Shown here one piece after another: positions 2,939 through 28,028 of a DNA stretch of 43,152 bases. The stretch comes from a virus. The notes below the pieces were generated by a model that saw only the letters and a program-made list of their open reading frames with translations, did no database searches and had not been told where the DNA came from. The position numbers were made by a program, and so were the translations under genes. Within the stretch, counting starts at the first letter, position 1. Every line of letters begins with the position of its first letter. The DNA is taken from the IMG/VR virus record IMGVR_UViG_3300002917_000003, positions 1 to 43,152 of that record. The stretch is one strand, 5' to 3'.

Positions 2939-3244
2939 TTAGGAAATTACAAGTCTACGGATTGCCTCCGCCAAAACCTGTATGCCAAGTGCTACATCGG
3001 GAGTGTATGGACCGTAACTAAAGTGTGCCAGTCCCATTAATAAAGCTTGTGCTCCGGCAATGATAACTTGAAAGATAATTACTTTTAAATCGTGCTTGTT
3101 CCATTCAAATGCGCCTGATTGTGGATTCATAGGATTCACCCCCTTAAGTTTTAGTTGTTTTAGTTGTTGTCGTAATAAATAATTTTCATCTTTTAAGTAA
3201 TTAATTCGTTGGATAATCTTTTTAACAACTTCCTGCTTAATCAT
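2939..3244 (-). CDS. Holin-like membrane protein, 101 aa
   Basis: Residues 1-33 are a charged helix with coiled-coil spacing. Residues 52-75 (LKVIIFQVIIAGAQALLMGLAH) form one strong membrane segment, with a second weaker hydrophobic stretch near the end (VALGIQVLAEAI). ATG 3244 shares one base with the stop of the CHAP endolysin, and the gene is last before a terminator, a typical lysis-cassette position. Holins vary too much for sequence alone to prove the role. Confidence 0.55.
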   Translation of the reverse strand: MIKQEVVKKIIQRINYLKDENYLLRQQLKQLKLKGVNPMNPQSGAFEWNKHDLKVIIFQVIIAGAQALLMGLAHFSYGPYTPDVALGIQVLAEAIRRLVIS

Positions 3245-3978
3245 TACATCGCTTCAAGTTTCTTTATAAGCCACTTGAGGCCTTTAATGAAGTTGGGGAA
3301 GTGAGAGGGGGGTGGAGAATCGAAGACTGAAGGAGGCTGTACTGACAGGGTAACAGTCTCAGGGGTAGGAGTTGGCACTGCAACTGTTGGAGTGCTAATG
3401 ATTGCTACGGGTCTATTCTCAAGTTCGGTTATTTTGTCCGTAAGCTCTTTAATTTTGGTCATTACCTCAGTAGCGTTGTTATAGCCAAGTGCTACGAATA
3501 AGTCATATTGCGTACTTTTGTTTACTAACCTATCAAAGGTTGTTTTATCAACATACGTCCCGCTCAGGGGTTGGGCAGGAAGAATCGGTCTCATCCACCC
3601 CTGAACAAATTGATAGTTATATGTTTTCTTTTGGCAAACACCGCCTACGGGGTCATTCTGTTCAAAAAGATCAAAATTGTTAGTATCACCGATGCCAGTA
3701 CTAATACCAGTATGCCCAACAGTTCCATTAAAATCCCTAGAGAAACAAACAATATCCCCAATCTGAGGAATGTTATCCGGAGTGTTTGGGATGATTTGAA
3801 AATATGTGGTATTTGCATTAGTAAGGAGATCATCGGCATTACCCCAAGTATGACTTAGGCCTAAGAAATCTGTCCAGACTTCAATTAAACCTACACATTG
3901 CGATTTGTTTTCTGTTGTATCCCCAACATCTCCCTGCCCTTCATATTTACCTAAAAATTGATTGAACTTATCTTGCAT
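3244..3978 (-). CDS. CHAP-domain endolysin, 244 aa
   Basis: Residues 1-133 match the CHAP (cysteine, histidine-dependent amidohydrolase/peptidase) fold. The candidate nucleophile is Cys28 in SQCVGLIEVW, the His is in GTVGHTGIS (about residue 92), and FEQNDP follows. The family cleaves peptidoglycan cross-links or the glycan-peptide amide. After it come a short coiled coil (residues 155-190), a Pro/Thr/Val-rich linker, and a C-terminal amphipathic basic helix (FPNFIKGLKWLIKKLEAM) that may bind membrane or wall. It lacks a signal peptide, so release probably needs a holin. Confidence 0.85.
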   Translation of the reverse strand: MQDKFNQFLGKYEGQGDVGDTTENKSQCVGLIEVWTDFLGLSHTWGNADDLLTNANTTYFQIIPNTPDNIPQIGDIVCFSRDFNGTVGHTGISTGIGDTNNFDLFEQNDPVGGVCQKKTYNYQFVQGWMRPILPAQPLSGTYVDKTTFDRLVNKSTQYDLFVALGYNNATEVMTKIKELTDKITELENRPVAIISTPTVAVPTPTPETVTLSVQPPSVFDSPPPSHFPNFIKGLKWLIKKLEAM

Positions 3979-4014: not shown

Positions 4015-4446
4015 ATGGTTAAGAAATTTTGTATTATATGCAAAAAACAATTCTTTGTACATAAATATCGACTTCATACAGCTCTCGCATGTTCTCTTAG
4101 TTGTCGTTCTAAATATATACAAATAACTCACCCTAATCTGCGAAAAACTCTTCCCCATAAATTTGGGAAAGAACATCCTCATTGGAATGGTGGCAAATGG
4201 ACGGATCATCAAGGATATATACACTTGAGATTGCCTAATTATCCACAAAGTAATCCTAGAGGATATTATCGAGAACATCGTTATGTGATGGAACAACATT
4301 TGGGACGTTTTCTTAAAAGATCGGAGCATATTCATCATATAAATGGAAATAAACAGGATAATAGAATTGAGAATTTGGAGCTTTTTAAAAATGCGATGGA
4401 TCATGCCAATCATCATATTTCTTTAAATGGTTCTGCTCATAATTAA
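4015..4446 (+). CDS. HNH endonuclease (HNH_3 type), 143 aa
   Basis: Against the direction of all neighbours. An N-terminal zinc-finger-like part (CIICKKQFF ... ACSLSC) is followed by a target-recognition stretch. The HNH core is at residues 87-127: HRYVMEQHLGR, then HIHHINGNKQDNRIENLEL, with the HH pair, the Asn and the last His region of the beta-beta-alpha metal motif. Such free-standing proteins are usually homing endonucleases that cut sister genomes lacking them. It has its own promoter and no ribosome binding site. It splits the lysis cassette between the endolysin and the coiled-coil membrane protein. Confidence 0.9.
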   Translation: MVKKFCIICKKQFFVHKYRLHTALACSLSCRSKYIQITHPNLRKTLPHKFGKEHPHWNGGKWTDHQGYIHLRLPNYPQSNPRGYYREHRYVMEQHLGRFLKRSEHIHHINGNKQDNRIENLELFKNAMDHANHHISLNGSAHN

Positions 4447-4798: not shown

Positions 4799-7700
4799 CT
4801 AGACGTAATTATATTTACCATACGTTTTACTATGTTGTCCACCTCCAAGACGTTTTAGATTTACTTTTTGAATTGGTAATTGTTTCATTGCTTGCAAGGT
4901 AGGTTGTTTCATTTTAGTAGTTCCTACTTTGGCACTCAACCCTTTGATCGCTCCTTTTGTCCCTCCGCCGAAAGAAACTTTGGGAGCTTTGGCTTTTGCC
5001 TGTGCATGGGCCTGCATGGTTGCCTGATGACGCGCTTGTATTGCTAGCATCCCTTTTCCTAGCGTTCCTCCGGCAAGCATTTTCCCGCCAGATGATTTGG
5101 CAACACTAGCCAGCTTACCCGTACTACCCGTACCCCCTCCGCCTTTGATGGGAAGGCGGGAACTGGCAGCTCTACTGCTTCCGTATGATTTAGCTCCGGT
5201 TGCTCCCGCTGTTGGAGGAAGCCCCATCGCCTGCAATTGCTGATTGTTATACGCATCTAGGGCGTGAAAGTAATTTTGCACCTGTGGAGCGTTCCACTGT
5301 TTGGCATTCATAAGAGCCTGTGTTTGCGAATCCGCTGTCGGATAGGGTATTGAGGTACTCCCCCCCGTTCCTCCTGTTGCGGTCTGTTGTGGGAGGGTAA
5401 GTGCCCATTGGCTGCGTTGTGATAAGAACTGTTTATACCAGGGGAGTTGCTGGAGCATCGCCGAGTAGGTACTCTTCTGACCAGGTAATTTATCAGCCGC
5501 CGCCATAACCAGATTTCTATATTGGGCTGGTAGATCCCACAAGGGATCATGGTTTGGTTGGCTCTGTTGAAATTTTACTTCCGCTTTCATCACATCCGGA
5601 TGATGCAAAAGAACGTCATATTTATCCGGAGTCATTCGAATAGTTTTATCAATCATCGGATTACCAAAATTGTCTTTTGACTGTGGATGAAGACTGTCAA
5701 AGATGGTTTGGTCGTTAGGGTTTTTTAAACTATCATGTGTCGCTTTAAGCGAGGCAAAGTATTTCATAGTCGGGTCTTGAGCGTTGGTTGTGGTACGAAG
5801 TCCCGCTATTTGAATCGCTGCCTGTTGCGGCGTTATCTTACCCTGCTGCATATTAACAACATTTTGTACGCCGATAGGCAGTTTACTCGTACCGATGTTT
5901 TGAGCCATTTGCAAGGCAGCTGGTGTTTTAGATTGAGGATTAACAATATTGTTTCCGTAATAATCTTTACCTGTTAATGCCCCTTGAGCCCCAGATAGGA
6001 TAGGATTGAGTCTTGCCTGCCCATAATGTTGAAGATTGGTTGTATCGCCTTGCAGCAGTCCCAAAACTGGCTTACTAAATTCGCTAATAAAAGTTTGGGG
6101 TAATACAACATCCTGCTTGTGGCCTTTGGGATTGGTAAGGTCTGTTTGGATTGTCGGATTAGTAGAGTAATTTGTCATTATTTGTTGCAAATTTGGATAT
6201 TGACCCGTTGCTAATTTTGTTCCTAATGTTGCGAGTGTTCCGAAAAGAATTGTTTTTCCTAAGACAGCGCGTCTTGCTAACTCTCCGGCATCGCCACCTT
6301 TTGTAAGCGCGTCTTTAAGCATGGAAGCCTTAGATAAAGTAAACTGTGGAGCAAGGAAAACACGCGAAGCAAGCTTCATCGTATTAGGATTAAGATTCAT
6401 TGTTCGAGGATTCATCTCGCCAATAATTTTTTCTATTTCCTGTCCCGCTTGTCCTCCCTGAAAAGATTCAGGATCTATCTTGCCGGATCCAAATACCTGA
6501 TCGACCAGATTAAGTTTTAGCGTATAGAGTTCACGATCAAACATCGCTTTTTGCATCTCTGAAAATGGATTGAGTTTTGCTAAGCCCCGGTTTGGTAACT
6601 CCCGATCCATTTTAACCCCTGCCCGTAATCCCGCATCAAAAACTGAGTAGTCTTTTCCTTCAATCGTCTTGCTTTTAAAACTATTAATTATCCCCTGTGT
6701 CGCTCTTTCAGAAACATACGAAGGGATAGACTCCAATAGTCCTGTAGTTGCTCGTATTGGATTAAAAATCATTGATCCTGTATAATTTCCAGAAATGTTT
6801 ATAGAATGAAAGCCTGACATGCTAAGCAGCATCCGCTTCATAGGCCCTGACGCTTTATCGTAGAGAGAAGCGATTGTATCTAAGGCTCCCGTGTCCTTTA
6901 ATCCCTGTATTGTTCCCTGTAAAACATTTCCTCCGTTTTCACGTGTAGCATCCTGAATGTGCTGAAATAATAATCCTGTAGTTAATGGTTGATAGCCCTG
7001 TAGTCTTTTGTTTACGTCAGGGTGAAAAGACATTCCTTCTAGTCCTGGAATATTCGAGTTGATAAAGGCTTTTCCTTCCGGTGTCGATCCAACACCTTGA
7101 GAGCTTACTTTATCCGGAACCGCTTGTGTAAGCCCCTGCTTTAGGGCTTGTCTGCTAATTGCATAACTTGCTCCACCATAATCGTCTTTCAAGTCTCCTA
7201 AGATATTCTCATTAAGACGGGTAAATCCTTTGGCTTCTCCCTCAGCGTAGTTATAAAAAACTCTGGGTTGATTAGAGTACCCGTTCCATTTTTGTACTCC
7301 CCGCTGAGTAGCAAGTTCGTTAAACTCTGCCAGTTTCTGCGGGTCAAATAAATTCCATCGTTGCCTAAGATAGTTTTCCCGTACAGGCGTGTCTCCGCCA
7401 ACTGCATGATCTGCTGCGATTCTGAAATCATAGTAGTCAGTAATCTTTTGCATAAAGTTGGTGAATGCTTTGGGGTTCTCCGCCTGTTGGGAAAGGGCTG
7501 CTATTGTCGTAGGGGTCTCGTCTTCTCCTGGCTGCCATTGTTCTGCAAGCTTAAGATCGTTTGGAGAGATTTTTGTTCCAGCTATATACGCATCTTTCCC
7601 TTTGACTTTAATTTCATTAGAGATTCGTTCAGAATTAACTATAGCTGATTGTATTTTTTCGGTATCATTTGAGCCCGAAATCTTAAGATTTACTTGATTC

Positions 7701-9646
7701 TTGGTTCCCCCGCCTGTGGGTGGTACATACCCTGGTGTATTGCCTGTTTTTTGATCTTTTGCTACGACTCCCATATCCTTCTCAAAGCCTGGGATGGTCT
7801 TTCCTTCAGCTTTTGCATCCTGCAGGCCTTGCGCTAACGTTTGTGCCTGCTCCTGTGGCATTTGGGCTGTTGCCTGAGCGTTTGCCTCTTTCTCGGCTTG
7901 TAACTCAGGTGGTGGTTTTTCTCCAGCTTGTGCGCGTATCTCGTGATTAACAATACTCTCTAAGAAGGAGTTAGGATCATGCACTTGCAATTCTCCCCGC
8001 ACCCCATCTTTAACGAAGTCTATATGATAAGCAGAGTAGGTATCCTTGGTCACCTGCTGCTGTTTGAGGATCTTTAGCTCTCCATTTCGCTCCATATCAT
8101 TAATTGCTGAAATGATTTGTCCTTTTTGCTGGGGAGTGTTGGCAATAAACCGACCCCCATAGGGATCGTTGACTCCTTTAGCACTATACTCTTCAGTTCC
8201 TTCTAAGCGGTGTTGGGCAACCTTTTGTACAAACGTATCAGGAGCCTTAACCCTACTTTCAAAATCCGCAAAAGGATTAAGTCCCGCGCTTTCAGCTATC
8301 TTCTGGAAGCTTTCATCTAGGGCAGGTTGAGCATTTTTTGCTTTATCTAAGATACCTTGAACCTTGGCTTTGCCTTTATCGGTTGTAAGTTCTGGTGCTA
8401 ACTCTTTAATTTTATCGGGGGTGAGTGCCGCTTCCCCCCCGATTTGTTCCTTGAGCCCCTGTTGTTCCTGTGTTTGAGACTCCAGATCAAAGCCGCCCTT
8501 AATGTCTACTGGCTTTACGCTTTCGCTCTTAAGGGCGGCATAGACATCTGAAAGTAATGGTGCATCCTTGTGTAAGATAATAGCTGGTACTTTATCAACT
8601 CCTAGTGCCCGTGCTGCTGGTATACCATGATGACGGTCAATAATATCATATGCCGTTGGCATGTCAGGATTGCGCCTCACAATAGCTAACTCCTGGTCTC
8701 CATTATTTGCAGTCCACTGTGTTGCAACCCGATTATCAATAACCGCTGCTGACTGCTTAGGATCCAGGGGAATAGTTCCCCTATCTGTTGAGATATACCC
8801 GATATAACCGTTAAGCTCTCTGAGAGGTTCTGGCCCTTTTCCTATATCAGCATAGGTGTCTCCATGATTATTAATCTCAGGATGTTTATCTAAGAAAGTG
8901 TTCCAGTCTTTTTCAGGAAGAAGCTTATCAGCCAGATAAGAGGAGTTATCATAATTTACTCTATTCTCCTGAATCTTTGGCATCATGCCTTGTACGGTTT
9001 TGGCGGCATCGGGTTCAATTCCTTTCGTGTCTCCAAATGGTAAAAGACCTTTTGTATTCGGAACTGCTTTATTAAGAGCCTGTTTTGCTCTTGCTGTTAC
9101 ATCATTTATTCCACCTATAGCACTTACTCCAAGTCTTGGTTCTTCAATTCCAATGGGTGCAAAGTTTGTTGCAAATTCCTCAGCGGATTGTTGCTGTTGA
9201 GGGGTTTGACCTGCAATAAGACCAGGAAACAGTTGATGTCCTACTTGTTGAAAGGGAACTGCTACCATATTCATTGCTCCTGATGTTTGCGATGATAGTA
9301 ATCCATTCTGTTTTGTTCTTTGTGGAGTCACTTGCGGGGTAATCTGTTTAAGAGCTTGGTCTGCAAGAGAGGGGACTTGTGAAGCAATATTGTAGAAAGT
9401 GTCTGCGACTGGTTTAATGTTTTGATAACCTACATTAGGATTATTAAAAAACGAAGAGGTAATATCTGGCAGGGACTGAGGTAGCTTTTGAATATCTCCT
9501 TCTATTCCCTGAGCGACACTTGAAACCCCCTGTTCAATGGGTTGAGCAATGTGGGCAATAGCAGAGCCAACCTGATTAAAAGCGTTACCAAAATTTTGTT
9601 TCAAAGATTGAAACATCGAAGCGGCTGTTTGTATAGCATTGTCCAT
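4799..9646 (-). CDS. Giant polyvalent virion protein with ParB-like and RelA/SpoT-like regions, 1615 aa
   Basis: Residues 1-200 are low-complexity and helical. At 331-357, AYDIIDRHHGIPAARALG plus VDKVPAII resembles the ParB/sulfiredoxin-like signature (usually IDGHHR...AA..LG...VP). Residues 462-556 resemble a RelA/SpoT nucleotidyltransferase: RVKAP...K475, ND494PYGGR, Y540H541, and GE552LQV matching the catalytic E-x-Q. The middle (about 600-1350) is typical of large polyvalent proteins. The last 200 residues are Gly/Ser/Lys-rich and basic, suggesting DNA or wall contact. Such proteins are thought to be packaged and injected with the DNA. The position between tail and lysis genes fits. Domain calls are by eye. 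Confidence 0.8.
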   Translation of the reverse strand: MDNAIQTAASMFQSLKQNFGNAFNQVGSAIAHIAQPIEQGVSSVAQGIEGDIQKLPQSLPDITSSFFNNPNVGYQNIKPVADTFYNIASQVPSLADQALKQITPQVTPQRTKQNGLLSSQTSGAMNMVAVPFQQVGHQLFPGLIAGQTPQQQQSAEEFATNFAPIGIEEPRLGVSAIGGINDVTARAKQALNKAVPNTKGLLPFGDTKGIEPDAAKTVQGMMPKIQENRVNYDNSSYLADKLLPEKDWNTFLDKHPEINNHGDTYADIGKGPEPLRELNGYIGYISTDRGTIPLDPKQSAAVIDNRVATQWTANNGDQELAIVRRNPDMPTAYDIIDRHHGIPAARALGVDKVPAIILHKDAPLLSDVYAALKSESVKPVDIKGGFDLESQTQEQQGLKEQIGGEAALTPDKIKELAPELTTDKGKAKVQGILDKAKNAQPALDESFQKIAESAGLNPFADFESRVKAPDTFVQKVAQHRLEGTEEYSAKGVNDPYGGRFIANTPQQKGQIISAINDMERNGELKILKQQQVTKDTYSAYHIDFVKDGVRGELQVHDPNSFLESIVNHEIRAQAGEKPPPELQAEKEANAQATAQMPQEQAQTLAQGLQDAKAEGKTIPGFEKDMGVVAKDQKTGNTPGYVPPTGGGTKNQVNLKISGSNDTEKIQSAIVNSERISNEIKVKGKDAYIAGTKISPNDLKLAEQWQPGEDETPTTIAALSQQAENPKAFTNFMQKITDYYDFRIAADHAVGGDTPVRENYLRQRWNLFDPQKLAEFNELATQRGVQKWNGYSNQPRVFYNYAEGEAKGFTRLNENILGDLKDDYGGASYAISRQALKQGLTQAVPDKVSSQGVGSTPEGKAFINSNIPGLEGMSFHPDVNKRLQGYQPLTTGLLFQHIQDATRENGGNVLQGTIQGLKDTGALDTIASLYDKASGPMKRMLLSMSGFHSINISGNYTGSMIFNPIRATTGLLESIPSYVSERATQGIINSFKSKTIEGKDYSVFDAGLRAGVKMDRELPNRGLAKLNPFSEMQKAMFDRELYTLKLNLVDQVFGSGKIDPESFQGGQAGQEIEKIIGEMNPRTMNLNPNTMKLASRVFLAPQFTLSKASMLKDALTKGGDAGELARRAVLGKTILFGTLATLGTKLATGQYPNLQQIMTNYSTNPTIQTDLTNPKGHKQDVVLPQTFISEFSKPVLGLLQGDTTNLQHYGQARLNPILSGAQGALTGKDYYGNNIVNPQSKTPAALQMAQNIGTSKLPIGVQNVVNMQQGKITPQQAAIQIAGLRTTTNAQDPTMKYFASLKATHDSLKNPNDQTIFDSLHPQSKDNFGNPMIDKTIRMTPDKYDVLLHHPDVMKAEVKFQQSQPNHDPLWDLPAQYRNLVMAAADKLPGQKSTYSAMLQQLPWYKQFLSQRSQWALTLPQQTATGGTGGSTSIPYPTADSQTQALMNAKQWNAPQVQNYFHALDAYNNQQLQAMGLPPTAGATGAKSYGSSRAASSRLPIKGGGGTGSTGKLASVAKSSGGKMLAGGTLGKGMLAIQARHQATMQAHAQAKAKAPKVSFGGGTKGAIKGLSAKVGTTKMKQPTLQAMKQLPIQKVNLKRLGGGQHSKTYGKYNYV

Positions 9647-9652
9647 AACATA

Positions 9653-10855
9653 TTATGAAGTTGCCTGTTGGAAAGCGTTCAATGGGTTTTGATTAGGAAG
9701 TGATCCTCTATCTTGTGGTGTTGCTGGTGCATTAACCGTTGTGTTTTGTGAATTAGCAAGTCCTGTGTTCAAGTTGGTAGCCAGTCCCGCACTTTGCGCT
9801 CCCTGTTGTTGAATTTGTGATAAGGCGGATTGTCCTTTCTGTCCATAAATTTTAAGTTGTGTCTGAGCATTTAGGGTTGCGATTGCCCATTGCTGTTGCT
9901 CCTGAGCCCGTTGCGCGTTTATATTAGTAACCGTGTCCTGAAAATGCTGAATGGCTTGTGCGGCCATTTGCGCCTTATTAGATTGGAGCATTGCTTCATT
10001 ACCTTTAATTTGTCCGATAAACTTTTGTAAGTTATCCTGTTCTGTCTGAATCGCCTGATCGAATCTTTCATTTGTCCCCCTAATTGCCAGTTCTCCTGTT
10101 TGTTTTATCTGTGTTATTTTATCGTTAATATCCTGCAGGTGTTGGGAGAGTCCCTGATGCAAGAGGGCGATATTCCTGCCAGTTGATTGTCCCAGTTGTT
10201 CATTAAGAAACGCTCCTGTTCCCGTAGTTGAGCCGTACCGAGCGAGGTTTCCTTGAGACATTTCAGCATACATGCGCTTTGCTTCTTCAACAGCGTTGTT
10301 TGTTTCATCTGTTTGCTGCGTTGTCTGACGGGATAGATCCTGTTGCTGTCCAGCGAATTGCTGGTTCTGAGTATCAAGCTCTGTCTGACGTTGTTTATTC
10401 ATTCCCCCCACGGTATTGGCGGTCGTTTGCTGTTGAGTGCCAATAAGGGATTCGAAGTTTTGGATAACCGGCTCTATCATTTTATCAAAGACGCTGGTAT
10501 CGGGAGCCTGAGGCTGTTGTCCCTTCCACTGGTTAAAAAGATTTTGTTTATACGGATTAGAAAGGTCTGGATGATTAGGATCGCCAAAGCCCCCACCTGT
10601 TGGCGTTTGCCATCCTCCGCCGCCCGAAGGCTTATTTTGCCCTTGTGTGTTTGCTCCTTGGATTTGTCCCCCTCCCCCGCCTCTTTGATTGTTTTGTTGT
10701 GGCTGTTGGTAGCGTAATTGATTACCCGGTTGATTAGAAAAATTATTAAAAGCCTGTCCTGATTGATTTAGCTGTCCCATTCCAGGAGTCGGCCCTGGAC
10801 GAAAAGGGGTTTGAGCGGTAATTCCCATTGAACCGACATTTGCAAAATCTGCCAT
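9653..10855 (-). CDS. Gln-rich coiled-coil virion protein, 400 aa
   Basis: The N-terminal ~110 residues are Gly/Gln/Asn/Pro-rich and disordered, and contain PTPGMGQLNQSGQAF. Residues 110-330 form long helices with heptads and many Gln, as in phage internal or ejection proteins. The tail is low complexity again. It lies just before the giant protein and the two may be co-injected (inference). The ATG follows a promoter, AAGGAGG and then a hairpin with U-tract; the hairpin would have to be looped out to bring the ribosome binding site near the ATG. Confidence 0.7.
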   Translation of the reverse strand: MADFANVGSMGITAQTPFRPGPTPGMGQLNQSGQAFNNFSNQPGNQLRYQQPQQNNQRGGGGGQIQGANTQGQNKPSGGGGWQTPTGGGFGDPNHPDLSNPYKQNLFNQWKGQQPQAPDTSVFDKMIEPVIQNFESLIGTQQQTTANTVGGMNKQRQTELDTQNQQFAGQQQDLSRQTTQQTDETNNAVEEAKRMYAEMSQGNLARYGSTTGTGAFLNEQLGQSTGRNIALLHQGLSQHLQDINDKITQIKQTGELAIRGTNERFDQAIQTEQDNLQKFIGQIKGNEAMLQSNKAQMAAQAIQHFQDTVTNINAQRAQEQQQWAIATLNAQTQLKIYGQKGQSALSQIQQQGAQSAGLATNLNTGLANSQNTTVNAPATPQDRGSLPNQNPLNAFQQATS

Positions 10856-13616: not shown

Positions 13617-14189
13617 ATGCGACCTACTCCATTGATCGAACTTACTTGCAAATGGTGTGATAAGCCTTTTAAGGTAAAATTCAAGTACCGAGAACAGAAG
13701 TTTTGTTCTTTGGCCTGCACTGGTCACTATGGCAATAGAAATAAAGTTAATAAGTTTCAGAAACCTTGTAAGATATGTAGTAAACCGCTTACTACTATTC
13801 CTTCCCGCGTTGCTAAGGGTAGAGGAAAATACTGTTCTAAAGAATGTTACACGGTTGCTATGAAAGGTGTACCTCACGCATCTCCTAGTGAAGAAACTAA
13901 AATGAAACTTTCTGAACAAAGACGAGGTAAATTGAATCCAGCTTTTAAACATGGGGAATCGGAATCCATGAGTCAATACAATAGCCGATTCAATAAAATG
14001 CTTAAAGATAAAATTATGACACGAGATAACCACCAATGTAATTGGTGTGGAGTTAAAAATAAAAGATTGGTTGTTCATCATCTTGACCATAATAAATTAA
14101 ATAACGATTATAAAAATTTAATAACTTTATGTATTCATTGTCACTCCAGTTATCATAGACAATACGAGTGGGACAATGGCCTTCGCTAA
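13617..14189 (+). CDS. HNH endonuclease with zinc-finger N-terminus, 190 aa
   Basis: Plus strand in a minus-strand region. Two Cys4-like fingers (CKWCDKPF...FCSLAC; CKICSKPL...YCSKEC) and a basic linker (EETKMKLSEQRRGKLNPAF, of the NUMOD3 kind) precede the nuclease. The HNH core is at residues 131-180: TRDNHQCNWCG, LVVHHLDHNKLNN, LITLCIHCHSSYH. Probably a free-standing homing endonuclease. Its last 63 bases overlap, in antisense, the end of the nozzle gene. Confidence 0.9.
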   Translation: MRPTPLIELTCKWCDKPFKVKFKYREQKFCSLACTGHYGNRNKVNKFQKPCKICSKPLTTIPSRVAKGRGKYCSKECYTVAMKGVPHASPSEETKMKLSEQRRGKLNPAFKHGESESMSQYNSRFNKMLKDKIMTRDNHQCNWCGVKNKRLVVHHLDHNKLNNDYKNLITLCIHCHSSYHRQYEWDNGLR

Positions 14190-16142
14190 TAGGACGAGGA
14201 GTAAGACCTGTTTCCATTGCGAGGGTCTAACTCCACCCCCGATTATATTGGCATCCCCCCGAATACCTAAAAGTTCATAATTATCCGCGCTAGTGGTTGT
14301 TGTAACTGTTATTTGCATAATTCGGGCTATCATATTTAATTCTCTCCATTTGATTGTTTGCTGAGTGTTGATGCCTCCTCCTCCAACTAGACTAGTTCCC
14401 CAGATTGCTGTTCCCCAGATATCCGCCCCCCAGCCTGAATTTCCTGTTACTGGCGTAACGGTAAAGGATTTGGCTGTTACTGTTGAGCCACTTCGCTGTT
14501 CCAGCCGGATAGAAACCGCGACAGATCCGGTAATGTTTCTAAACTGCACAAAGATATTTTTAATGTTCTTAAAGAGCGACCAGTCTCCAAAATCCTCCTG
14601 GCGGGTTCTAAGAATGGTTTGTATCGCCACTCCGTTATCATCAGGAAATGTCTTATTATATTCCTGTACATTTGTATCATTGACATCTCCATAAAGCAAA
14701 TGCTGGTCTGAATTACTATCCGTGTAGACCTCGTAGACATTTGCATCCCGCGTCCATGGCCCCATCCACGCGCTTCTTTCAACGTCATAGGTCATTCCCT
14801 GTCCCAGCCCTGGAAACGCGATGATATACTTTTTTAAGTAATACGCGGCGCAGGCATTTTGTTTCTGCGTTGTTGTTAAATTATCAAAGAACGGCCTGAT
14901 CTTTAAATATAACGGATTGGCTCTAAGTAAATCTGAGAGATATCCTAACTGATATCCAAGGCTGTATAATCCATCCCGCGCCATGAAATAAATATCATTC
15001 TCAACACTGGTAATTGAGCGGGGGGCTACGCATCCATACGATGCGGTAACTAACTGCACAACTGGTACAAGAATTGTGAAATTGCCCGCTGTTATCTCAG
15101 TTAAGAAAATCTGCCAGATACTCCGTTGTTTAAAAACGACAACTCTGTCTCGAAATGCCGCAAGTCCTGTCACATTGTCTCCCGCGTCCGGTTCGATAAG
15201 AATCGAGTTTCCCCCATTAGCAATGTCGTACCGCTCCTGCAGGGGTACGTGACCTGAAATAACAACCATAGAAGGACTGCCTGCGATCCCTGCCATAACT
15301 AGTCTATCCTGCAGTCTGACGATATATTTGGCTGTCGGGCCTCCTGTTGAATCAACTATTGGAGGATAGACAAAGTCTGCCGTATTTACTAAACCAGTAT
15401 CATCATAGGTTGTTGCCTGCGGCCCCACTCCCGCAATAAACTTCTCATTTCCCGGATCACGTCCGTAGACGTTAAATCCCTGCAGGATAGAGGCCGTTGA
15501 AACCCCTGTCCACGTTAAACGAATTGTCCCTCCCGCTACTCCTCCCAGTGCTGCTGGCTGATTGTTAAGGATAAACTCAGTTGATGCAAGCGTTTCCCCA
15601 ACTTGTGAGATAGCGCTCACCCGATATCCTTTACTTGTTGTTCCTGAAGCTCCTGAGAGATTGGTTGCTGAGACAATTACCGGAATAGCAATCGTTGAGA
15701 AACCTACCAGAGTTGGCGAGGAATACTTCGCCAGTGGTCTGACTCCGTCAACCAAATACATGGTGTTATTTAATTGAGCCATATACATATTATTTCCGCT
15801 GGCCCATGATACGCCTGTTAAAGTGCTATAGCTGGCTCCTGATTTTTTGGTCAAATACCCTGCGTCAGTAAAGCCGAGTAATTCATTTGTCCCGTCTGAT
15901 TTATAAAATCCCCTGAGTCCGCGGACTGCTCCGGTGGCCGCTCCTGCCTGATAATACAAGGAGGTTCCCCATCGTTTCGTTGGGACTCCCCGCCCAATAA
16001 GGTATAAATCATCGGCTTGTGCAAGTTCATTGTCTGCAATTTCATTTTCCCGTAATAGCTTATTTAATCCACCAACAAAGGTTGTCCAGTTAAATGGAAT
16101 TAACTTTTTTGGTTTGTAAGTTACTGGTGGTAAAACTATCAT
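14127..16142 (-). CDS. Tail nozzle / beta-propeller protein, 671 aa
   Basis: Starts MIVLPPVTYKPKKLIPFNWT. Repeated blade-like units occur (GVPTKRWGTSLYY, LLGFTDAGYLTKKSG, NNMYMAQLNNTMYLVDG, DRVVVFKQRSIWQIFL, DIYFMARDGLYSLGYQLG), as in the tube or nozzle proteins of SU10- and P22-like short tails. It directly follows the putative adaptor gene, as in those phages. The last ~20 residues (LAKAIVPLVLSMI...) are hydrophobic and are encoded antisense to the HNH gene, so the native C-terminus was probably replaced when the HNH gene inserted. Confidence 0.65.
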   Translation of the reverse strand: MIVLPPVTYKPKKLIPFNWTTFVGGLNKLLRENEIADNELAQADDLYLIGRGVPTKRWGTSLYYQAGAATGAVRGLRGFYKSDGTNELLGFTDAGYLTKKSGASYSTLTGVSWASGNNMYMAQLNNTMYLVDGVRPLAKYSSPTLVGFSTIAIPVIVSATNLSGASGTTSKGYRVSAISQVGETLASTEFILNNQPAALGGVAGGTIRLTWTGVSTASILQGFNVYGRDPGNEKFIAGVGPQATTYDDTGLVNTADFVYPPIVDSTGGPTAKYIVRLQDRLVMAGIAGSPSMVVISGHVPLQERYDIANGGNSILIEPDAGDNVTGLAAFRDRVVVFKQRSIWQIFLTEITAGNFTILVPVVQLVTASYGCVAPRSITSVENDIYFMARDGLYSLGYQLGYLSDLLRANPLYLKIRPFFDNLTTTQKQNACAAYYLKKYIIAFPGLGQGMTYDVERSAWMGPWTRDANVYEVYTDSNSDQHLLYGDVNDTNVQEYNKTFPDDNGVAIQTILRTRQEDFGDWSLFKNIKNIFVQFRNITGSVAVSIRLEQRSGSTVTAKSFTVTPVTGNSGWGADIWGTAIWGTSLVGGGGINTQQTIKWRELNMIARIMQITVTTTTSADNYELLGIRGDANIIGGGVRPSQWKQVLLLVLLAKAIVPLVLSMITGVTMNT

Positions 16143-16148
16143 ACATAC

Positions 16149-16895
16149 TTAAGCTATCCAAGGTTGTCCGTCAGTCGAATCGCCCCAACGAAAATCTCCA
16201 AAACGTGTCTGTTCAATTGTTTTTACCCGATCATAGGTACTTGCTTCACTAAAGGTATTCTCATAATCAATCATTTGTCCTAAGATGCGTTCTGATTCCG
16301 ACTTCATTTCAGGAAATCTGTCATCCTGTCGCACTTCCCATAAGTAAGCCAAAGAACGCTTAATGACATACATAGGGTTAGGGATCTCACAAATATCTGC
16401 AGGGGATGCAAGCGATTGAAAAGATCGGTAGTAAGGCACAAGAACTGACGCGCCGCTTGCTAACGTAGGCGCGTGAATAAACATTGTATAGTTTGCCCTT
16501 GGATTTCCCCATACTTCAACCCATCGATCAGGACTGCTTATACCACCCGTATTCCCTCCCCGATTAGTTAAGGAAAATTGAGACTTTTCCTGCGGTCTGA
16601 CTTCGGGAAAACGATCAGTTGTTGACCCATCCCATACAATAAGGGGGAATGAAGCTATTTTTCGAAAATCCAGAGGCAGAGCAATTGAAGCGTTTCCTGT
16701 TGAGGTTGAAACAAGAACAGAATATTCATTGTATAAAACTTGCCAATCATACGCCTCCTGCCACTCAGTCATGGCCATATTGATAAATTTTAGTCGCAAA
16801 GCATAATCCGTACTTGAAATATCAGAAGTTACGGGGTCTTGATCTGCTAACGCAGCTATGCGACTTTGGATTTCGTCTACGCTGATGACTGACAT
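16149..16895 (-). CDS. Head-tail adaptor protein, 248 aa
   Basis: Start chosen at ATG 16895 (MSVISVDEIQSRIAALADQD), which has GAGG five bases upstream; a GTG at 16961 would overlap the previous gene and lacks a ribosome binding site. The N-terminal helices (residues 1-60: DYALRLKFINMAMTEWQEAYDW) are typical of podovirus adaptors that dock on the portal. A beta domain follows (STGNASIALPLDFRKIASF), then C-terminal helices (YVIKRSLAYLWEVRQDDRFPEM). Its place next to the nozzle supports the call. Confidence 0.65.
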   Translation of the reverse strand: MSVISVDEIQSRIAALADQDPVTSDISSTDYALRLKFINMAMTEWQEAYDWQVLYNEYSVLVSTSTGNASIALPLDFRKIASFPLIVWDGSTTDRFPEVRPQEKSQFSLTNRGGNTGGISSPDRWVEVWGNPRANYTMFIHAPTLASGASVLVPYYRSFQSLASPADICEIPNPMYVIKRSLAYLWEVRQDDRFPEMKSESERILGQMIDYENTFSEASTYDRVKTIEQTRFGDFRWGDSTDGQPWIA

Positions 16896-16953
16896 AATTA
16901 CCTCAATCAACCCTCCACGTATGGGTATGAAGGGCTGAAAGCGATAAGCAAGA

Positions 16954-17343
16954 TCAGCCACGAGCTGCTGCTGTTACTGATCCTGAAGGTAATACTGGAA
17001 TCCATCCAAGCGTTACACCATCGGGATACGCAACACGAATTGCTCCTGTTCCTACAACTGCTCCTGTCGTAAACAGAATAGTGGTACAAGAAACAAAGCT
17101 CTGTCCAAGAAGCTGGAAAGCTGGTGCTGAAGCTGTTGAGCCAAGTCCCAGTGCGAGAAGAGCAACCGTTGGCGAGCCAACAGTCAGTGCTTGCACGCTT
17201 AGTGCGACTCCTTCTGTTGCGCTGGACTTAAAAGTTACACCAGGTGCGACTGATGAGCCTGCATTACCCGCAAGACCAATCATACGCGTATCAGACGTAA
17301 AATCTGCTCCTGGACTTGCTGCTAAGTTTGGTAAATTTGCCAT
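16954..17343 (-). CDS. Small Ala/Gly/Thr-rich structural protein, 129 aa
   Basis: ATG 17343 with GGGTGAT upstream. MANLPNLAASPGADFTSDTR is followed by Ala/Val/Gly/Thr-rich strands (GVALSVQALTVGSPTVALLALGLG) and no charged clusters, like a small beta decoration or tail-knob protein. Its stop overlaps a poor alternative start of the adaptor gene. No family recognised. Confidence 0.55.
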   Translation of the reverse strand: MANLPNLAASPGADFTSDTRMIGLAGNAGSSVAPGVTFKSSATEGVALSVQALTVGSPTVALLALGLGSTASAPAFQLLGQSFVSCTTILFTTGAVVGTGAIRVAYPDGVTLGWIPVLPSGSVTAAARG

Positions 17344-21607: not shown

Positions 21608-22357
21608 TTACTCTTTTTCAGCTATATAGTCAAGCTTAAGGTTTTTACCGTTTAGGATATCCTTTGCGTCCTGCTGGTAAAGTTCAATAGCTATTTTATA
21701 CTTGTCGTCCCATTCAGATGACAATCTTGGGTGGGAAATAGCCCGATATTCTAAGCTTTGATCAAGATACAGTTTATATCCAGCTTTCTCGAACCGGAGA
21801 TTAGTAATTTTTTCACTCAAAGCCGCTCCTTTATCATAGTTTTCAGGCATACCCCCAACGTCATAGATAGCCTGACGGGGAAAAGAAGCGATACACCATT
21901 CTATTTCACTTGCTAAAGTTTCGTAATATGCTCCCATGTCTGTACGCTTACGCGGATCCTGCCATACCATATGCTCAGGCTTTCCATTTAGCACTTGATC
22001 GTATTGATTGCCAAGTAAACCAACGACTGATTTAGGGTTGGTTTCATAATGACTCCAGAGTCTCTCTAAAAGATCCGGAGGAAACCATAAGCCATCAGTA
22101 AGAGAGACAATAAGCTCTCCCTGAGCATATCTAAATCCTTGATTCCATGCCTTGTTAAGTCCGTAGTAGTCCCCCTCGTTTTTTAAAGGTTCCCCAACAA
22201 CAATATACTCATATTCATATATTCTATCTACCTCCATAAACAGATACTGAGGGACAACAATGATCCATTCAAAGTCTTTAAATGTTTGTCTTTTGAGACA
22301 CTTAGCTACTATCTCAAGCATTTCTGGACGCACCGAAGGGGTGACAATACTAATCAT
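21608..22357 (-). CDS. Family 2-like glycosyltransferase, 249 aa
   Basis: MISIVTPSVRPEMLEIVAKCL is the GT-A N-terminal strand and helix that binds the nucleotide sugar. FKDFEWIIVVP and KAWNQGFRYAQGELIVSLTDG give the second strand and the metal-site region (SLTDG in place of DxD). WCIASFPRQAIYDVGGMPENYDKG is the acceptor-side loop of GT2 enzymes. No membrane segments, so cytosolic. Last gene of the glycan cargo; starts inside the HNH gene end. Confidence 0.8.
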   Translation of the reverse strand: MISIVTPSVRPEMLEIVAKCLKRQTFKDFEWIIVVPQYLFMEVDRIYEYEYIVVGEPLKNEGDYYGLNKAWNQGFRYAQGELIVSLTDGLWFPPDLLERLWSHYETNPKSVVGLLGNQYDQVLNGKPEHMVWQDPRKRTDMGAYYETLASEIEWCIASFPRQAIYDVGGMPENYDKGAALSEKITNLRFEKAGYKLYLDQSLEYRAISHPRLSSEWDDKYKIAIELYQQDAKDILNGKNLKLDYIAEKE

Positions 22358-22778
22358 ATGATTTTCGTTTTTTCCATATTTCTTTCATAAATTCAGAATG
22401 TTCTTCTCCTTTTTTAAAAGAACCACCATTAGCAGATTGTGTCCCCTTTTTTCCTTTATTCCAAACTTCCCTCCCTTTTAAAGATTTTTTTATTTTGTTA
22501 AGATGTTCCTCTGTTTTTTTATGTCCTTTTTTAAAATAATTATCTTTTCTTTTTAACCATGCCTTATCATATCTTATATGACATTTTGCACATAAATAAA
22601 ACCAATTCTTAAATTCTCTATTATAAATTCCTGTCTTATTAGCTAACTGTACTTTTTTATTTTCATCCTTACAATGTTCACAAAGCTTGGGTTTATTAAT
22701 ATGTCTCCTAATCCAAGCATGTAAGCCTTTATTTCCTACTTTATCCCCTTTCCAGTTGCTGTGTAAGTTGTTGTTCAT
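22350..22778 (-). CDS. HNH-family endonuclease, 142 aa
   Basis: SNWKGDKVGNKGLHAWIRRH is the familiar head of a phage HNH family. It is followed by CEHC (residues 33-36), and by WFYLCAKCHIRYD (CxxCH) that completes the finger. A basic tail with repeated KKG...KGRE...KG motifs resembles a NUMOD3 DNA-binding tail. It overlaps the C-terminus of the upstream methyltransferase by 38 bases and the downstream glycosyltransferase start. Unlike the other three HNH genes it has no clear promoter; a TATAGA box lies only two bases from the ATG. Confidence 0.75.
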   Translation of the reverse strand: MNNNLHSNWKGDKVGNKGLHAWIRRHINKPKLCEHCKDENKKVQLANKTGIYNREFKNWFYLCAKCHIRYDKAWLKRKDNYFKKGHKKTEEHLNKIKKSLKGREVWNKGKKGTQSANGGSFKKGEEHSEFMKEIWKKRKSYD

Positions 22779-23958
22779 AATCTATAATTTTAAATTCTGG
22801 TAAAAATACAATAAATTTACCCCCTGCTATTAAATAATCCTTTTCCCGTTCTAGAAATTCTTTTAGAAAAAACCAAGGGCCAATAATCATAAAATCAGCT
22901 CCATCTTTTCTTGCCTGTTCTTCGGAAATAATAGGAATGCCAATTGAAGCCATTATTTTTCCCCATTTTTCAGGATTGCGTTCAACGGCAGCAACAATTT
23001 GTTTATTATCTAACCCCATATATTGTAACATACTTCCTGATCTGGTGGAAGCCCCATATAGATATATCTTTTTTCCTTTTTTAATTTGTTCATTAATAAA
23101 AGTAACTGCTTTAAGTTTAATGTTCTGTACTCTGAATTTAAATAGTAAGTATGTTCCCCAGTTATCAAGTCTGGCTTTCTTCTCCCACCTGCGAAGACGT
23201 TCAACGGGATTTATAAACTTAATATATGTTCTGAATGATCCACCGTTAATATCATTTAGCTCGACATCGACTATCTCTAAGTCATGCTGGTCTAAGAGAT
23301 ATTCCAGGGACTTTAAACTGTAGTATTCAATATGTTCATGGACAATATTATCAAAAGCGTTCTGTTCAAGCATACTGCCTAAGTAATTCTGTTGGATAAT
23401 AATCACACCATCCTCAGTAAGCGCTTCTGTGAGGTCATGTACGAACTTGTGAGGGTCTTCCAGATCATAAAAGCAGGAAATGACTGTAATTATCTTAGCT
23501 TTTTTGTTTCCCATTTCTTTTTGCCATGCTTCCAGACTCCAGAAATCATTAATAACGTGATTGACAGTTTTCCGACACTCATTAGCCAGCTTCTTAATCG
23601 GTTCGCAGGCCACTTTTGTCAACCAGTAAGGATAAAATTTAAGCAGTGTCCCGTCATTGGCTCCAATATCCAGTACAATATCATCTGATTGTAAAATAGT
23701 ATATTTCATTGCCCGCAGAGCGATTTCTTTCAAATTAGCTTTGATTGTATCGTTGATACCTGACTTATATCCGTAATTCTCGGTATAAAGCTCTTTTTGC
23801 GGGGTAGATTCTTTTAGTTGAACAAGGGTGCAGGTAGAACACATCACCATATCCAAGGGGTACTTACTTGGCTTTTTCCCATCGTTAAATTCGGAGAGAT
23901 ATTGATCTCCAAAGGATGCTATCTCTTTCGTTGGGCCTCCACAATTACGGCACTTCAT
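22741..23958 (-). CDS. SAM-dependent C-methyltransferase with N-terminal zinc domain, 405 aa
   Basis: Three-domain enzyme of the sugar C-methyltransferase type. The N-terminal zinc-binding domain has CRNCGG at 3-8 and CSTC at 36-39. The SAM domain has VLDIGANDGTLL at about 95-106. The C-terminal domain carries YLYGASTRSG (residues ~300-310). This layout acts on nucleotide-linked keto-deoxysugars. It suggests the phage methylates a sugar used by the neighbouring glycosyltransferases (inference). ATG 23958. Confidence 0.85.
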   Translation of the reverse strand: MKCRNCGGPTKEIASFGDQYLSEFNDGKKPSKYPLDMVMCSTCTLVQLKESTPQKELYTENYGYKSGINDTIKANLKEIALRAMKYTILQSDDIVLDIGANDGTLLKFYPYWLTKVACEPIKKLANECRKTVNHVINDFWSLEAWQKEMGNKKAKIITVISCFYDLEDPHKFVHDLTEALTEDGVIIIQQNYLGSMLEQNAFDNIVHEHIEYYSLKSLEYLLDQHDLEIVDVELNDINGGSFRTYIKFINPVERLRRWEKKARLDNWGTYLLFKFRVQNIKLKAVTFINEQIKKGKKIYLYGASTRSGSMLQYMGLDNKQIVAAVERNPEKWGKIMASIGIPIISEEQARKDGADFMIIGPWFFLKEFLEREKDYLIAGGKFIVFLPEFKIIDYEQQLTQQLERG

Positions 23959-24359
23959 AATTTATCTCCTATTTTAGTTAATACACCCGTAATAAATTCT
24001 TTTCTTGTTTTTGTAATATGACCTTTAATTTCATGATTTTCCCACTTTTTTATAACATTACAATTTGCACATAAAAGTTGATAATCTTTTGACCCATTTC
24101 GTACATGCTCTAACATATGTCTAATTTTTCCTTGCCCTGTTCTATTTCTTATTTTTCTACTATTTCCACCACCGTTTACATGATCTATTTGAAAAGCTCT
24201 TCTGTCTTTAAACCCACATTTACAACATTTATCTCCTAATAAAATATAGAGTTCGTTTCTAATACGATAATAATATTCCCTATCATGTTCCCTAGCTTTT
24301 CTTTTGTATTCCTCATAATTATTAATTCTCCATTTATATACGCTAGTTTTAGTTTTCAT
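23955..24359 (-). CDS. HNH endonuclease, 134 aa
   Basis: Basic N-terminal helix (EEYKRKAREHDREYYYRI), then CCKCGF, FQIDHVNGGGNSRK (the DHxxGGG form of the HNH centre) and LLCANCN, then a short tail. Typical phage HNH protein. It lies between two glycan genes in the operon direction but has its own promoter, whose -35 box includes the stop codon of the upstream gene. Its stop overlaps the methyltransferase ATG by four bases. Confidence 0.9.
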   Translation of the reverse strand: MKTKTSVYKWRINNYEEYKRKAREHDREYYYRIRNELYILLGDKCCKCGFKDRRAFQIDHVNGGGNSRKIRNRTGQGKIRHMLEHVRNGSKDYQLLCANCNVIKKWENHEIKGHITKTRKEFITGVLTKIGDKL

Positions 24360-24365
24360 ACCCCC

Positions 24366-24395
24366 AGTATATCATGGATACACATTCCTTGTCAA
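24366..24395 (-). promoter_or_regulatory. Consensus promoter for HNH gene 3 (leaderless)
   Basis: TTGACA (24395-24390), 18 bases, TATACT (24371-24366), six bases, ATG 24359. The +1 should be the A of the ATG. The preceding GGGGG could not act as a normal ribosome binding site if transcription starts at the ATG. Confidence 0.9.
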
Positions 24396-25111
24396 GGCAT
24401 CGGTTTCCACCTTTCCTTCATCTGCTCAGGGTATGTTTTAGCAAAGAGTATATCCGGATACTCTCCAAACTTACTCTTAAAGTATTCTCTCCGCCTCTGA
24501 TCTTCCTTGGCTCTTTCTTCCTGATTTAAAAGATTTTGTGTGGAGCTGTCTTTATGCTGATAAGAAGCCTTATTCGTATAGGCAGTATATAAACCTTCTG
24601 TTCGAACACGATACCAGTAATCGTAATCCTCGTACCCTCCTAAACCATACGCCTCATCGTAAAGAAACTTCCGGTGCGCCGGAGAGAGGACAAAAAATGA
24701 ACTACTGCACCACCGTTCCTTTCCTGTTAATGCGGTCATATCTCCATGATTAAAAGCTTCATCATAAGGAATCATCCTGAAGTGACAGGAATAGGCTTTG
24801 TCATTTAATAAGACCTCTCTTGCTACTTCTTGCCAGTTCGATGAGACACGAATATCGTTATTGGAAATCGCCGTATATTTCCCCAACTCTCCTAACATTA
24901 ACCCTTGATTAACCGCACGAGCGTACCCTAGATTCTCTTTATTTCGAATATAGGTATCAGCAACGGATCTGAGATACCCTCCTCCTACAGTTGACCCATT
25001 ATCAACAACAATAAGATTAACCTCGCCAAAACTTTCAACGGCATTTTTAGTCAGCTCTAAAAGCTCCTCATTGATTATCCAGCAAGGCATCACTACAGTA
25101 AATTCTTTCAT
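24392..25111 (-). CDS. Family 2 glycosyltransferase, 239 aa
   Basis: GT-A pattern: FTVVMPCWIINEEL, LIVVDNGSTVGGG (nucleotide binding), NKENLGYARAVNQGLM, SNNDIRVSS (DxD position), and GLGGYEDYDYWYRVR (catalytic ED loop of rhamnosyl-type transferases). No membrane segments. ATG 25111 overlaps the upstream stop by four bases. It probably adds a sugar in the same pathway as the neighbours. Confidence 0.85.
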   Translation of the reverse strand: MKEFTVVMPCWIINEELLELTKNAVESFGEVNLIVVDNGSTVGGGYLRSVADTYIRNKENLGYARAVNQGLMLGELGKYTAISNNDIRVSSNWQEVAREVLLNDKAYSCHFRMIPYDEAFNHGDMTALTGKERWCSSSFFVLSPAHRKFLYDEAYGLGGYEDYDYWYRVRTEGLYTAYTNKASYQHKDSSTQNLLNQEERAKEDQRRREYFKSKFGEYPDILFAKTYPEQMKERWKPMP

Positions 25112-25911
25112 AGCATTCCTTTCTCTAAATTCTTTGCATAAATCTGTGGCGAGTAATTAGCTAAGATAAATTCCCGTGGAGTATTAAACTCTGAATGAAT
25201 ATACTCCTCAACAAAAGAAAGTGTTCGTACGTTTTTTGGATTAACGCTGGGAACGATATTCATACTCATCGCTTCCAAACAAGTACGTTCCGACCCGTGA
25301 ATGGCAGGAATCGGAACGTACTGTGCTCGGTTATAACAATCTCGTATTACTCCTGGATTTAAGTAGCCTTCTAAAACAATAACACCCGTGTCATCGCAGG
25401 TATGACGTTCTCTTTCTCCATCGGGCTGAACCGTTCCAATACAAACAAGTTCTTTTCCTAGATGCGCTATAGCTGATTGTCGCTTCCAAGGACTAAAGGT
25501 TGCTGGATAAAAATATTTAATATCTTTTTGTACCTGTGTTGGGATATAGAAATCACTATCTGTACCGAACGCCCGAACGGCATGAAGTCCATGAGTTCGC
25601 ACCTGATCGTAAATAGGTTGTGATTCACAATAAACAACATCTAACTTTCTTAAATTATTCCAATTCACAGGATCAGTCGTTAAGATGATACCCTTCTTAG
25701 CAATATATTTGTCTATCTTATCGAAAAAGGGACAGTTAGAATCTCCCCAGAAAAGGAGAAAATCAGCATCGTCTAAAGGTTCGAATTCTCCTAATAAAAT
25801 ATTAACTGTATGCTTCTTCCCTAATTCCATAAGCGCCGCGCGTAATCCATCCTGCCAATTAGGACAAATTTCCGCTGCTCTATTCCAATACCAAAGAAAA
25901 TTAATAACCAT
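25108..25911 (-). CDS. Family 4-like glycosyltransferase, 267 aa
   Basis: Good ribosome binding site (AAAGGA before ATG 25911). Short GT-B-like protein. N-terminal half: NFLWYWNRAAEICPNWQDGLRAAL, DADFLLFWGDSN. C-terminal half: FYPATFSPWKRQSAIAHLG, VLEGYLNPGVIRDCYNRAQYVPIPAIHGSERTCLEAMSMNIVPSV, the donor-binding E-x7-E-like region of GT4 enzymes. Shorter than usual for GT4, but both lobes are recognisable. Confidence 0.7.
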   Translation of the reverse strand: MVINFLWYWNRAAEICPNWQDGLRAALMELGKKHTVNILLGEFEPLDDADFLLFWGDSNCPFFDKIDKYIAKKGIILTTDPVNWNNLRKLDVVYCESQPIYDQVRTHGLHAVRAFGTDSDFYIPTQVQKDIKYFYPATFSPWKRQSAIAHLGKELVCIGTVQPDGERERHTCDDTGVIVLEGYLNPGVIRDCYNRAQYVPIPAIHGSERTCLEAMSMNIVPSVNPKNVRTLSFVEEYIHSEFNTPREFILANYSPQIYAKNLEKGML

Positions 25912-26218
25912 GTTTTCCTTTTATAAAATCTAACATTTTTTTCTGCATTTCTAGTTGCAATACTTGTATTTCCTGCGGATCTATTTGTGATTCTGGAACT
26001 TCACATTCAAATGCTTTCATTAAACGATAATAATTTCTTTTAATTATGCTTTTTGCCTTTCCTAAAGCTTCCTCTTCCGTAGACGCAATTACAACGACTA
26101 CAGTTCCTTCTCCCATATGATACTCTTTCCCCGTAGCTAATAATTGAGGCGCAATTTGCCCTTCAATATAAGGAGACTTATAATTAAAAGCATTAAATTC
26201 ATAATGATAGTGTTTCAT
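25901..26218 (-). CDS. Hypothetical protein, 105 aa
   Basis: N-terminal beta strands (KHYHYEFNAFNYKSPYIEGQI, GTVVVVIASTEEEALGKAKSII), then a helical C-terminus (EIQVLQLEMQKKMLDFIKG). It overlaps the phosphatase-like gene stop by four bases. No recognised family; fixed in the cargo operon between a phosphatase-like and a glycosyltransferase gene. Confidence 0.6.
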   Translation of the reverse strand: MKHYHYEFNAFNYKSPYIEGQIAPQLLATGKEYHMGEGTVVVVIASTEEEALGKAKSIIKRNYYRLMKAFECEVPESQIDPQEIQVLQLEMQKKMLDFIKGKHGY

Positions 26219-26538
26219 ATTTTGTATGCCGCTAAATGTTTATATAGCTTATCAACGAGAGCTGGATGATTTGCCTGATGCCACACGTCATGTCCCACAT
26301 CATAAATAACTACTTTGGGATGATATCTTTGCGGAATAGCCATTTTAAACTCTGCCTCTAATACTACAATCCGATCAGCCCACTTACATAGATAATCAAG
26401 CGTATATGAACTATTACCTTTAATTCCCGCCGCCAGAGCATCATATCTATAGATCCTCCGAAGGATATAAGCGAGCGTAACGGATCGGATATTCCCCCCG
26501 CTACAAACACACAAGATTCTCTTACTCGGCTTTTTCAA
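26215..26538 (-). CDS. Low-molecular-weight protein-tyrosine-phosphatase-like protein, 107 aa
   Basis: TTG start at 26538, six bases after GGAAGGAG. RILCVCSGGNIRSVTLAYIL carries a C-x5-R-S phosphate loop (Cys13 to Arg19) as in LMW-PTP enzymes. The rest is trimmed: WADRIVVLE is present, and the usual Asp near the end is represented by VIYDVGHD. At 107 aa it is shorter than classical LMW-PTPs (~150). It may dephosphorylate a protein or sugar phosphate; bacterial homologues often sit in capsule loci. Confidence 0.75.
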   Translation of the reverse strand: MKKPSKRILCVCSGGNIRSVTLAYILRRIYRYDALAAGIKGNSSYTLDYLCKWADRIVVLEAEFKMAIPQRYHPKVVIYDVGHDVWHQANHPALVDKLYKHLAAYKI

Positions 26539-27172: not shown

Positions 27173-27183
27173 ACATTATTCCA

Positions 27184-27777: not shown

Positions 27778-28028
27778 ACTTTTGAACTGTCGTAAGACAT
27801 CCGTAACTCAACGATTCTATTCCTTACTATTTTGAGATAAAGATCTAAATCGTGCACTGATGCTCTGGCATTTCCTAAAGCCTGAAGTAATAATCCAAAC
27901 TCCTGAGACTTTGGTTCATAAAAGGTTGTATCCTTCACTAACCGTAATATCTCATTGATGTACGAACTTTCAATGAGCTCTAACTGTTTAAAAATTAATT
28001 CGTATCGTTGTTTTTCTTCTTCTTTCAT
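27774..28028 (-). CDS. Small coiled-coil protein, 84 aa
   Basis: Starts at ATG 28028 with GAGGTGG six bases before it. Fully helical with many Glu/Lys/Leu (EEEKQRYELIFKQLELIESS). No family known. Overlaps both neighbours by four bases, so it is part of the cargo operon; possibly an assembly partner of an enzyme there. Confidence 0.55.
   Translation of the reverse strand: MKEEEKQRYELIFKQLELIESSYINEILRLVKDTTFYEPKSQEFGLLLQALGNARASVHDLDLYLKIVRNRIVELRMSYDSSKV

Follow-up and report, generated by a model that had tools for sequence, protein, structure and literature searches.

Residues 453–592 of P0001, a phage protein of 1615 residues, almost certainly form a domain of the RelA/SpoT superfamily, and on sequence grounds this domain is closest to the small alarmone synthetases, the compact RelA/SpoT type. 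In bacteria, (p)ppGpp, the alarm signal of starvation, is the product of a RelA/SpoT-type enzyme domain, and alarmone synthetases are familiar as toxins, as enzymes of the host stress response, and as effectors of anti-phage defense. If P0001 enters the cell with the DNA, the phage itself would pull the stringent-response lever at entry. We give the whole of our main reading, with an alarmone as the product, a probability of roughly 55%, and its strongest-scoring profile is partly circular because it holds sequences first found via weak similarity to P0001.

The window (the whole stretch of DNA analyzed) is a 43,152-bp virus record with genes for a terminase, a portal protein, a major capsid protein, an SU10-type adaptor, and a CHAP endolysin. 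The P0001 gene is flanked by tail genes and by lysis genes (endolysin), and it is encoded among the late virion genes. The relevant features are as follows.

3244–3978 (−): CHAP endolysin of the late lysis module, downstream of P0001 (PF05257, 1e-7; PHROG endolysin)
4799–9646 (−): P0001, domain-bearing protein of 1615 aa, putative phage polyvalent/ejection protein; one uninterrupted ORF in late-gene position, with LPD38 in its counterparts
7871–8290 (−): RelA/SpoT-like 3'-pyrophosphokinase (Pol-beta nucleotidyltransferase) domain of P0001, aa 453–592 (hhalign, AF2 with Foldseek, profile search)
8504–8710 (−): ParB/sulfiredoxin-like segment of P0001, aa 313–381, YDIIDRHHGIPAARALGVDKVPAII (hhalign; PHROG match phrog_4715)
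9653–10855 (−): Gln-rich neighbor of 400 aa, kept beside the corresponding slot in the closest relative (G158_11719_12798, E = 1.4e-12)
14127–16961 (−): tail/head-completion gene and SU10-type adaptor, late virion module, upstream of P0001

P0001 joins several unrelated effector domains in one large protein, the RelA/SpoT domain and, with moderate confidence, a ParB-like one. In hhalign against two ParB proteins, the ParB-like segment gave P = 54% and a score of 39.4 (maximum of 20.1 in 60 shuffles), which dropped to 33.6 once a third sequence joined the ParB profile. ParB was also the sole PHROGs match of P0001, and a weak one (phrog_4715, E = 0.012). A match of aa 1439–1550 to the ribosomal protein uL4 in the PDB is probably due to the composition of the basic, Gly/Lys-rich tail.

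Homology, predicted fold, and catalytic motifs

A profile search of the window placed the domain at 7871–8278. Neither Pfam nor NCBIfam gave a RelA/SpoT family match in P0001, which falls below the curated cut-off of PF04607, a detection threshold and not a defining property of the family. PADLOC reported nothing relevant; its sole weak match was unrelated and lay elsewhere in the record. In hhalign against five RelA/SpoT proteins, aa 452–565 of the 1615 residues were matched with P = 86.7%, E = 4.3e-6, and a score of 52.3, whereas 40 shuffles reached at most 27.6 and twelve other proteins of the window at most 17.3, and the signal was gone once aa 441–590 were deleted. This profile is partly circular because finds from weak similarity searches went into it. 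An independent query supplied 14 cellular small synthetases, selected irrespective of the window, and their profile matched the same region more weakly, with a score of 28.8 (maximum of 22.1 in 100 shuffles) and an hmmsearch E value of 8.8e-4 for one target. P0001 was not matched by a profile built from 31 RelA/SpoT proteins, most of them long enzymes, a negative outcome for membership of the domain in the long RSH group. Since the small-synthetase profile matches and the long-RSH profile fails, the small synthetases are the nearest known group.

Pairwise, the domain aligned by BLASTP with a 198-aa plasmid RelA/SpoT protein (WP_274448674.1; E = 2e-7, 29% over 130 aa). phmmer against the PDB gave two weak matches, one of which was YwaC (E = 0.96) with its motifs in register. 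tblastn gave weak but motif-aligned matches to small synthetases, in phage as well as plasmid records, and to a polyvalent protein of a Helicobacter prophage; the three best plasmid matches are annotated as GTP pyrophosphokinases (E = 3–10), and further weak matches fell in Rhizobium phages and in the dUTPase region of FritzHoffmann. No close relatives of the domain or of P0001 were found among viral contigs. A DNA pattern of the hairpin motif found one Helicobacter phage plus chance matches in the viral scan; in 15 genome stretches it found Helicobacter and a single RelA/SpoT protein from Bacilli.

The (p)ppGpp-synthetase fold claimed by the first-pass annotation was borne out in the predicted models. 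AF2 with the single sequence gave a low-confidence model (pLDDT 57, near 80 in the core) with a β-α-β-β-β arrangement, for which Foldseek ranked SpoT, SAS1, and a nucleotidyltransferase of H. pylori highest; Pol mu and further nucleotidyltransferases came lower, amid mixed weaker matches. With eight sequences (seven relatives added), pLDDT rose to 76 with a pTM of 0.64, and the first 45 PDB matches (45 of 45) all belonged to the RelA/SpoT family, the best being RelP (E = 1.4e-6). The eight-sequence model is partly circular because RelA/SpoT rows inform it; the single-sequence model is free of them. A check for an unrelated fold led with both models to the nucleotidyltransferase superfamily, and the claim stands. 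Among the matches in a viral structure library are phage proteins 1,071 to 1,321 aa in length, one with a RelA/SpoT annotation, so that large phage proteins with an alarmone-synthetase fold are already on record.

The motifs lie at aa 465–556 in RelA/SpoT order (RVK...K, DPYGGR, YSAYH, GELQVH), at these positions.

8222–8254 (−): motif 1, R465-x-K467 (8246–8254) ... K475 (8222–8224); Lys columns invariant with eight relatives
8150–8167 (−): D494-P-Y-G-G-R499, canonical DxxGxR (alignment and pattern)
8024–8038 (−): Y537-S-A-Y-H541, Y-x-x-x-H motif (alignment and pattern)
7979–7996 (−): G-E552-L-Q554-V-H556, ExQ motif (alignment and pattern)

In RSH enzymes, motif 1 binds the donor nucleotide, the Asp of DxxGxR binds metal, Y-x-x-x-H binds the acceptor base, and the Glu of ExQ is catalytic. 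The combined motif pattern occurred in none of 100,000 shuffles of P0001. Among the 1,501 ORFs of the fetched DNA, it was found in P0001 and 19 others, all RelA/SpoT proteins; this pool is rich in RelA/SpoT by design, and the informative part is that zero unrelated ORFs matched. The motifs had been claimed in the order and spacing of the family, and all of them are present, at coordinates and residue numbers that agreed with those given earlier when the ORF and motif positions were recomputed. In a nine-sequence alignment (P0001, six compact relatives, and two small synthetases), the invariant columns were K467, K475, D494, Y537, H541, E552, and Q554 in P0001 numbering. The catalytic Asp and Glu, whose loss had been named beforehand as decisive against the assignment, are thus both kept (D494 and E552). 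Judged from the alignment, the domain keeps the catalytic Asp, Glu, Lys, Arg, Tyr, His, and Gln. It departs from RxKxxxS in that T471 replaces Ser, it is without the basic KDYI..PK..GY stretch ahead of Y-x-x-x-H, and it reads ELQVH versus canonical ExQ(I/V)R, with His for Arg.

The P0001 slot in related phages

About 45 records of related phages, at 48–73% identity, came from a search with the terminase. The 1615-aa protein had no match at E ≤ 0.01 in any of 42 related records. A RelA/SpoT domain profile was negative in all 33 related records searched, in a search whose positive controls were detected, the weakest being a long Rel enzyme (E = 2.5e-8), and absence of the domain is unproven record by record because several of these records are fragments. 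G158 is the closest relative (portal 6e-231, capsid 1e-134); there, a 1151-aa protein with LPD38 (E = 9e-25), a large polyvalent-protein domain (PF18857), occupies the slot beside the Gln-rich gene. The counterparts in G170 (1309 aa, LPD38 and a weak ParB match) and G175 (1276 aa, putative metallopeptidase domain) were assigned to the slot from closeness to tail genes. BLASTP of P0001 against the proteins of the counterpart region in G158, G170, G175, and G003 gave nothing significant. Phages that share the terminase, and in the closest case the portal and capsid too, differ strongly in the proteins of 1,150–1,600 aa encoded in the corresponding region, a pattern suggestive of a slot that evolves unusually fast or swaps modules.

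The description of P0001 as a virion polyvalent protein was supported indirectly. It is backed by the gene position, by LPD38 in the counterparts, and by the ParB-like segment; no LPD, MuF, or injection marker was detected in P0001 itself, and LPD38, tested separately, was not detected in its scaffold. Because the ParB-like segment is present and LPD38 is undetected, P0001 is called polyvalent by position and architecture and not through a scaffold domain in common with the counterparts. It shares a slot with the LPD38 proteins of related phages, beside the Gln-rich gene in G158, and differs in that it has no detectable LPD38 whereas no RelA/SpoT domain was found in those relatives. Position and family together make it fairly likely that P0001 is packaged and injected.

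Several other genes of the record were noted. Two HNH-endonuclease-like genes, at 4015–4446 (+) and 13617–14189 (+), run in the opposite direction to the late genes; the former has an HNH_3 match, and a related-phage gene (L015, 14351–14902) matches both by BLAST. They are probably free-standing homing endonucleases. A SpoU-type RNA methylase gene is located at 41752–42213 (−) (PF00588, E = 3e-19). A series of glycosyltransferase- and methyltransferase-like ORFs, with translations judged by eye, extends over 21608–30957 (−) within the late region, and glycosyltransferase-like genes likewise lie between structural genes in the related record G003. No tRNA genes were found in the record.

Acceptor choice, alternative readings, and proposed mechanism

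Motifs 2–4 read AVR / SxH / IR in guanosine enzymes and RYT / GxN / YH in Apk2, and exchanging them leaves the substrate unchanged (PMC12226406). P0001 has GGR / AxH / VH, a mixture that appears to lean to the guanosine side: DxxGxR and the His of YxxxH are guanosine-enzyme-like, and the His of ExQVH is adenosine-enzyme-like. As motif swaps do not switch the substrate (PMC12226406), that of the P0001 domain is not firmly predicted. Synthesis of (p)ppApp from ATP, as by the MuF-linked Apk2 and acting chiefly via ATP depletion, seems unlikely. Apk2, a RelA/SpoT-type domain joined to a phage structural domain, has been tested and uses ATP only (PMC12226406), and the ExQVH His recalls the YH of adenosine enzymes, but GGR and AxH are nearer to the guanosine AVR and SxH than to the RYT and GxN of Apk2 (PMC12226406), and no HD-type hydrolase matching PF13328 occurs in the record. 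We are equally doubtful of a pyrophosphokinase aimed at tRNA, of the FaRel2 or CapRel type, which would block tRNA 3'-CCA ends and halt host translation with no alarmone made. In its favor, FaRel2 and 7ztb, a RelA/SpoT-family structure, are likewise matched by the family profile, FaRel2 appears in the fold search too, and tRNA-modifying toxic small synthetases are established (PMC11559606). FaRel2 nevertheless ranks below RelP, SAS1, and SAS2 in both fold and sequence, and a translation block at entry would harm the phage's own early genes too.

The fold might also have been retained with catalysis lost, leaving a structural element or a sponge that binds host (p)ppGpp or GTP. The lost basic loop, the divergence beyond Pfam detection, and the finding of the same domain in 0 of 33 related records are in keeping with such decay, which would be expected to strike the catalytic residues first; because these are intact, they count against it. 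Seven catalytic positions, the Arg of RxK, and DxxGxR are all preserved in P0001, whereas the Helicobacter phage versions are without the RxK Arg and DxxGxR. We consider this reading improbable and expect that the domain is probably catalytically active. That the motifs are scattered by chance over an unrelated fold is extremely unlikely: the region has no database family match and the long-RSH profile is negative, but the shuffle controls, the pairwise E value of 2e-7, and the convergence of both AF2 models on one fold superfamily weigh heavily on the other side. A convergent motif in another fold was rejected in view of the AF2 models and shuffle controls.

Here, we propose the following course for the preferred reading, that of an injected alarmone synthetase. 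P0001, built as a ParB-like module, a RelA/SpoT module, and then a long scaffold, would be made late, probably be packaged in the virion, and enter the host with the phage DNA. The domain would most likely, to judge from its residues, transfer pyrophosphate from ATP to a 3'-OH and make (p)ppGpp or a related product within the first minutes of infection. The product would slow host rRNA and tRNA synthesis and translation while the phage takes over, and its synthesis would drain ATP and GTP during the takeover. More tentatively, the slot may be a fast-changing one in which effector modules are swapped among phages sharing capsid and portal, filled here by a virion-delivered alarmone synthetase that triggers the host stringent response from the particle, before expression and without an immunity gene. 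An HD_4 alarmone hydrolase (PF13328) as immunity gene was absent from the record in a search that detected its positive controls.

Comparison with known systems

Iyer et al. described RelA/SpoT domains in 2017, in polyvalent proteins from (pro)phages of spirochaetes and epsilonproteobacteria and also fused to MuF in phages; the triggering of an alarmone-like response was proposed, and DdrB-like ParB domains accompany RelA/SpoT in the same polyvalent proteins (PMC5512222). The combination of RelA/SpoT with a polyvalent protein is thus already known, and P0001 is a new, diverged example in another phage lineage. The idea goes back to 2017, and proteins of the MuF kind have been assayed; to these, P0001 adds an example from another phage group, whose motifs are nearer to those of guanosine enzymes, in a domain of about 140 aa that is small enough for direct test.

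The Helicobacter prophage proteins (L007/L013, L021, L027, L029, L033) likewise carry the RelA/SpoT domain within a large phage protein, and they have in common with P0001 the compact hairpin H-x-[DN]-x4-G-x3-E-x-Q-x-H, which a single DNA pattern picks out in both. ParB domains are reported for the polyvalent proteins of PMC5512222, and P0001 has its ParB-like segment. The Helicobacter versions belong to another phage lineage and are about 20% identical to P0001, in which RxK and DxxGxR are canonical whereas they are altered in Helicobacter; unlike the Helicobacter-type polyvalent proteins, P0001 has no recognized LPD or nuclease domain. MuF-Apk2 toxins, which make (p)ppApp (PMC12226406), resemble P0001 in bearing a RelA/SpoT-family domain on a phage structural-gene product (PMC12226406, PMC11699363). 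They consist of an N-terminal MuF and a C-terminal synthetase with an adjacent HD immunity hydrolase, whereas P0001 has no MuF match, an internal domain, no HD_4 (PF13328) gene in its record, and motifs 2 and 3 nearer to the guanosine enzymes.

The small alarmone synthetases RelP/SAS2/YwaC and RelQ/SAS1/YjbM share with the P0001 domain the catalytic motifs and, by prediction, the fold (Foldseek E = 1.4e-6, TM 0.64 over the query). These synthetases are free-standing and have the KDYI..PK loop and EIQIR, whereas the P0001 domain sits inside 1615 aa, is missing the loop, and has ELQVH. The best pairwise match, the "GTP pyrophosphokinase" WP_274448674.1 of a Lactococcus lactis LB7 plasmid (L019), passes PF04607 and shares with P0001 the short loop before YxxxH; it differs as a free-standing plasmid protein with ELQIWD at the catalytic Glu, against ELQVH in P0001. 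This 198-aa protein is encoded at L019 2770–3366, on a plasmid with two PF04607 matches of equal score, and is a candidate toxin or abortive-infection gene. In Helicobacter heilmannii (L186), a second RelA/SpoT-like domain of the genome was observed in a 2198-aa ORF (profile E = 4e-25).
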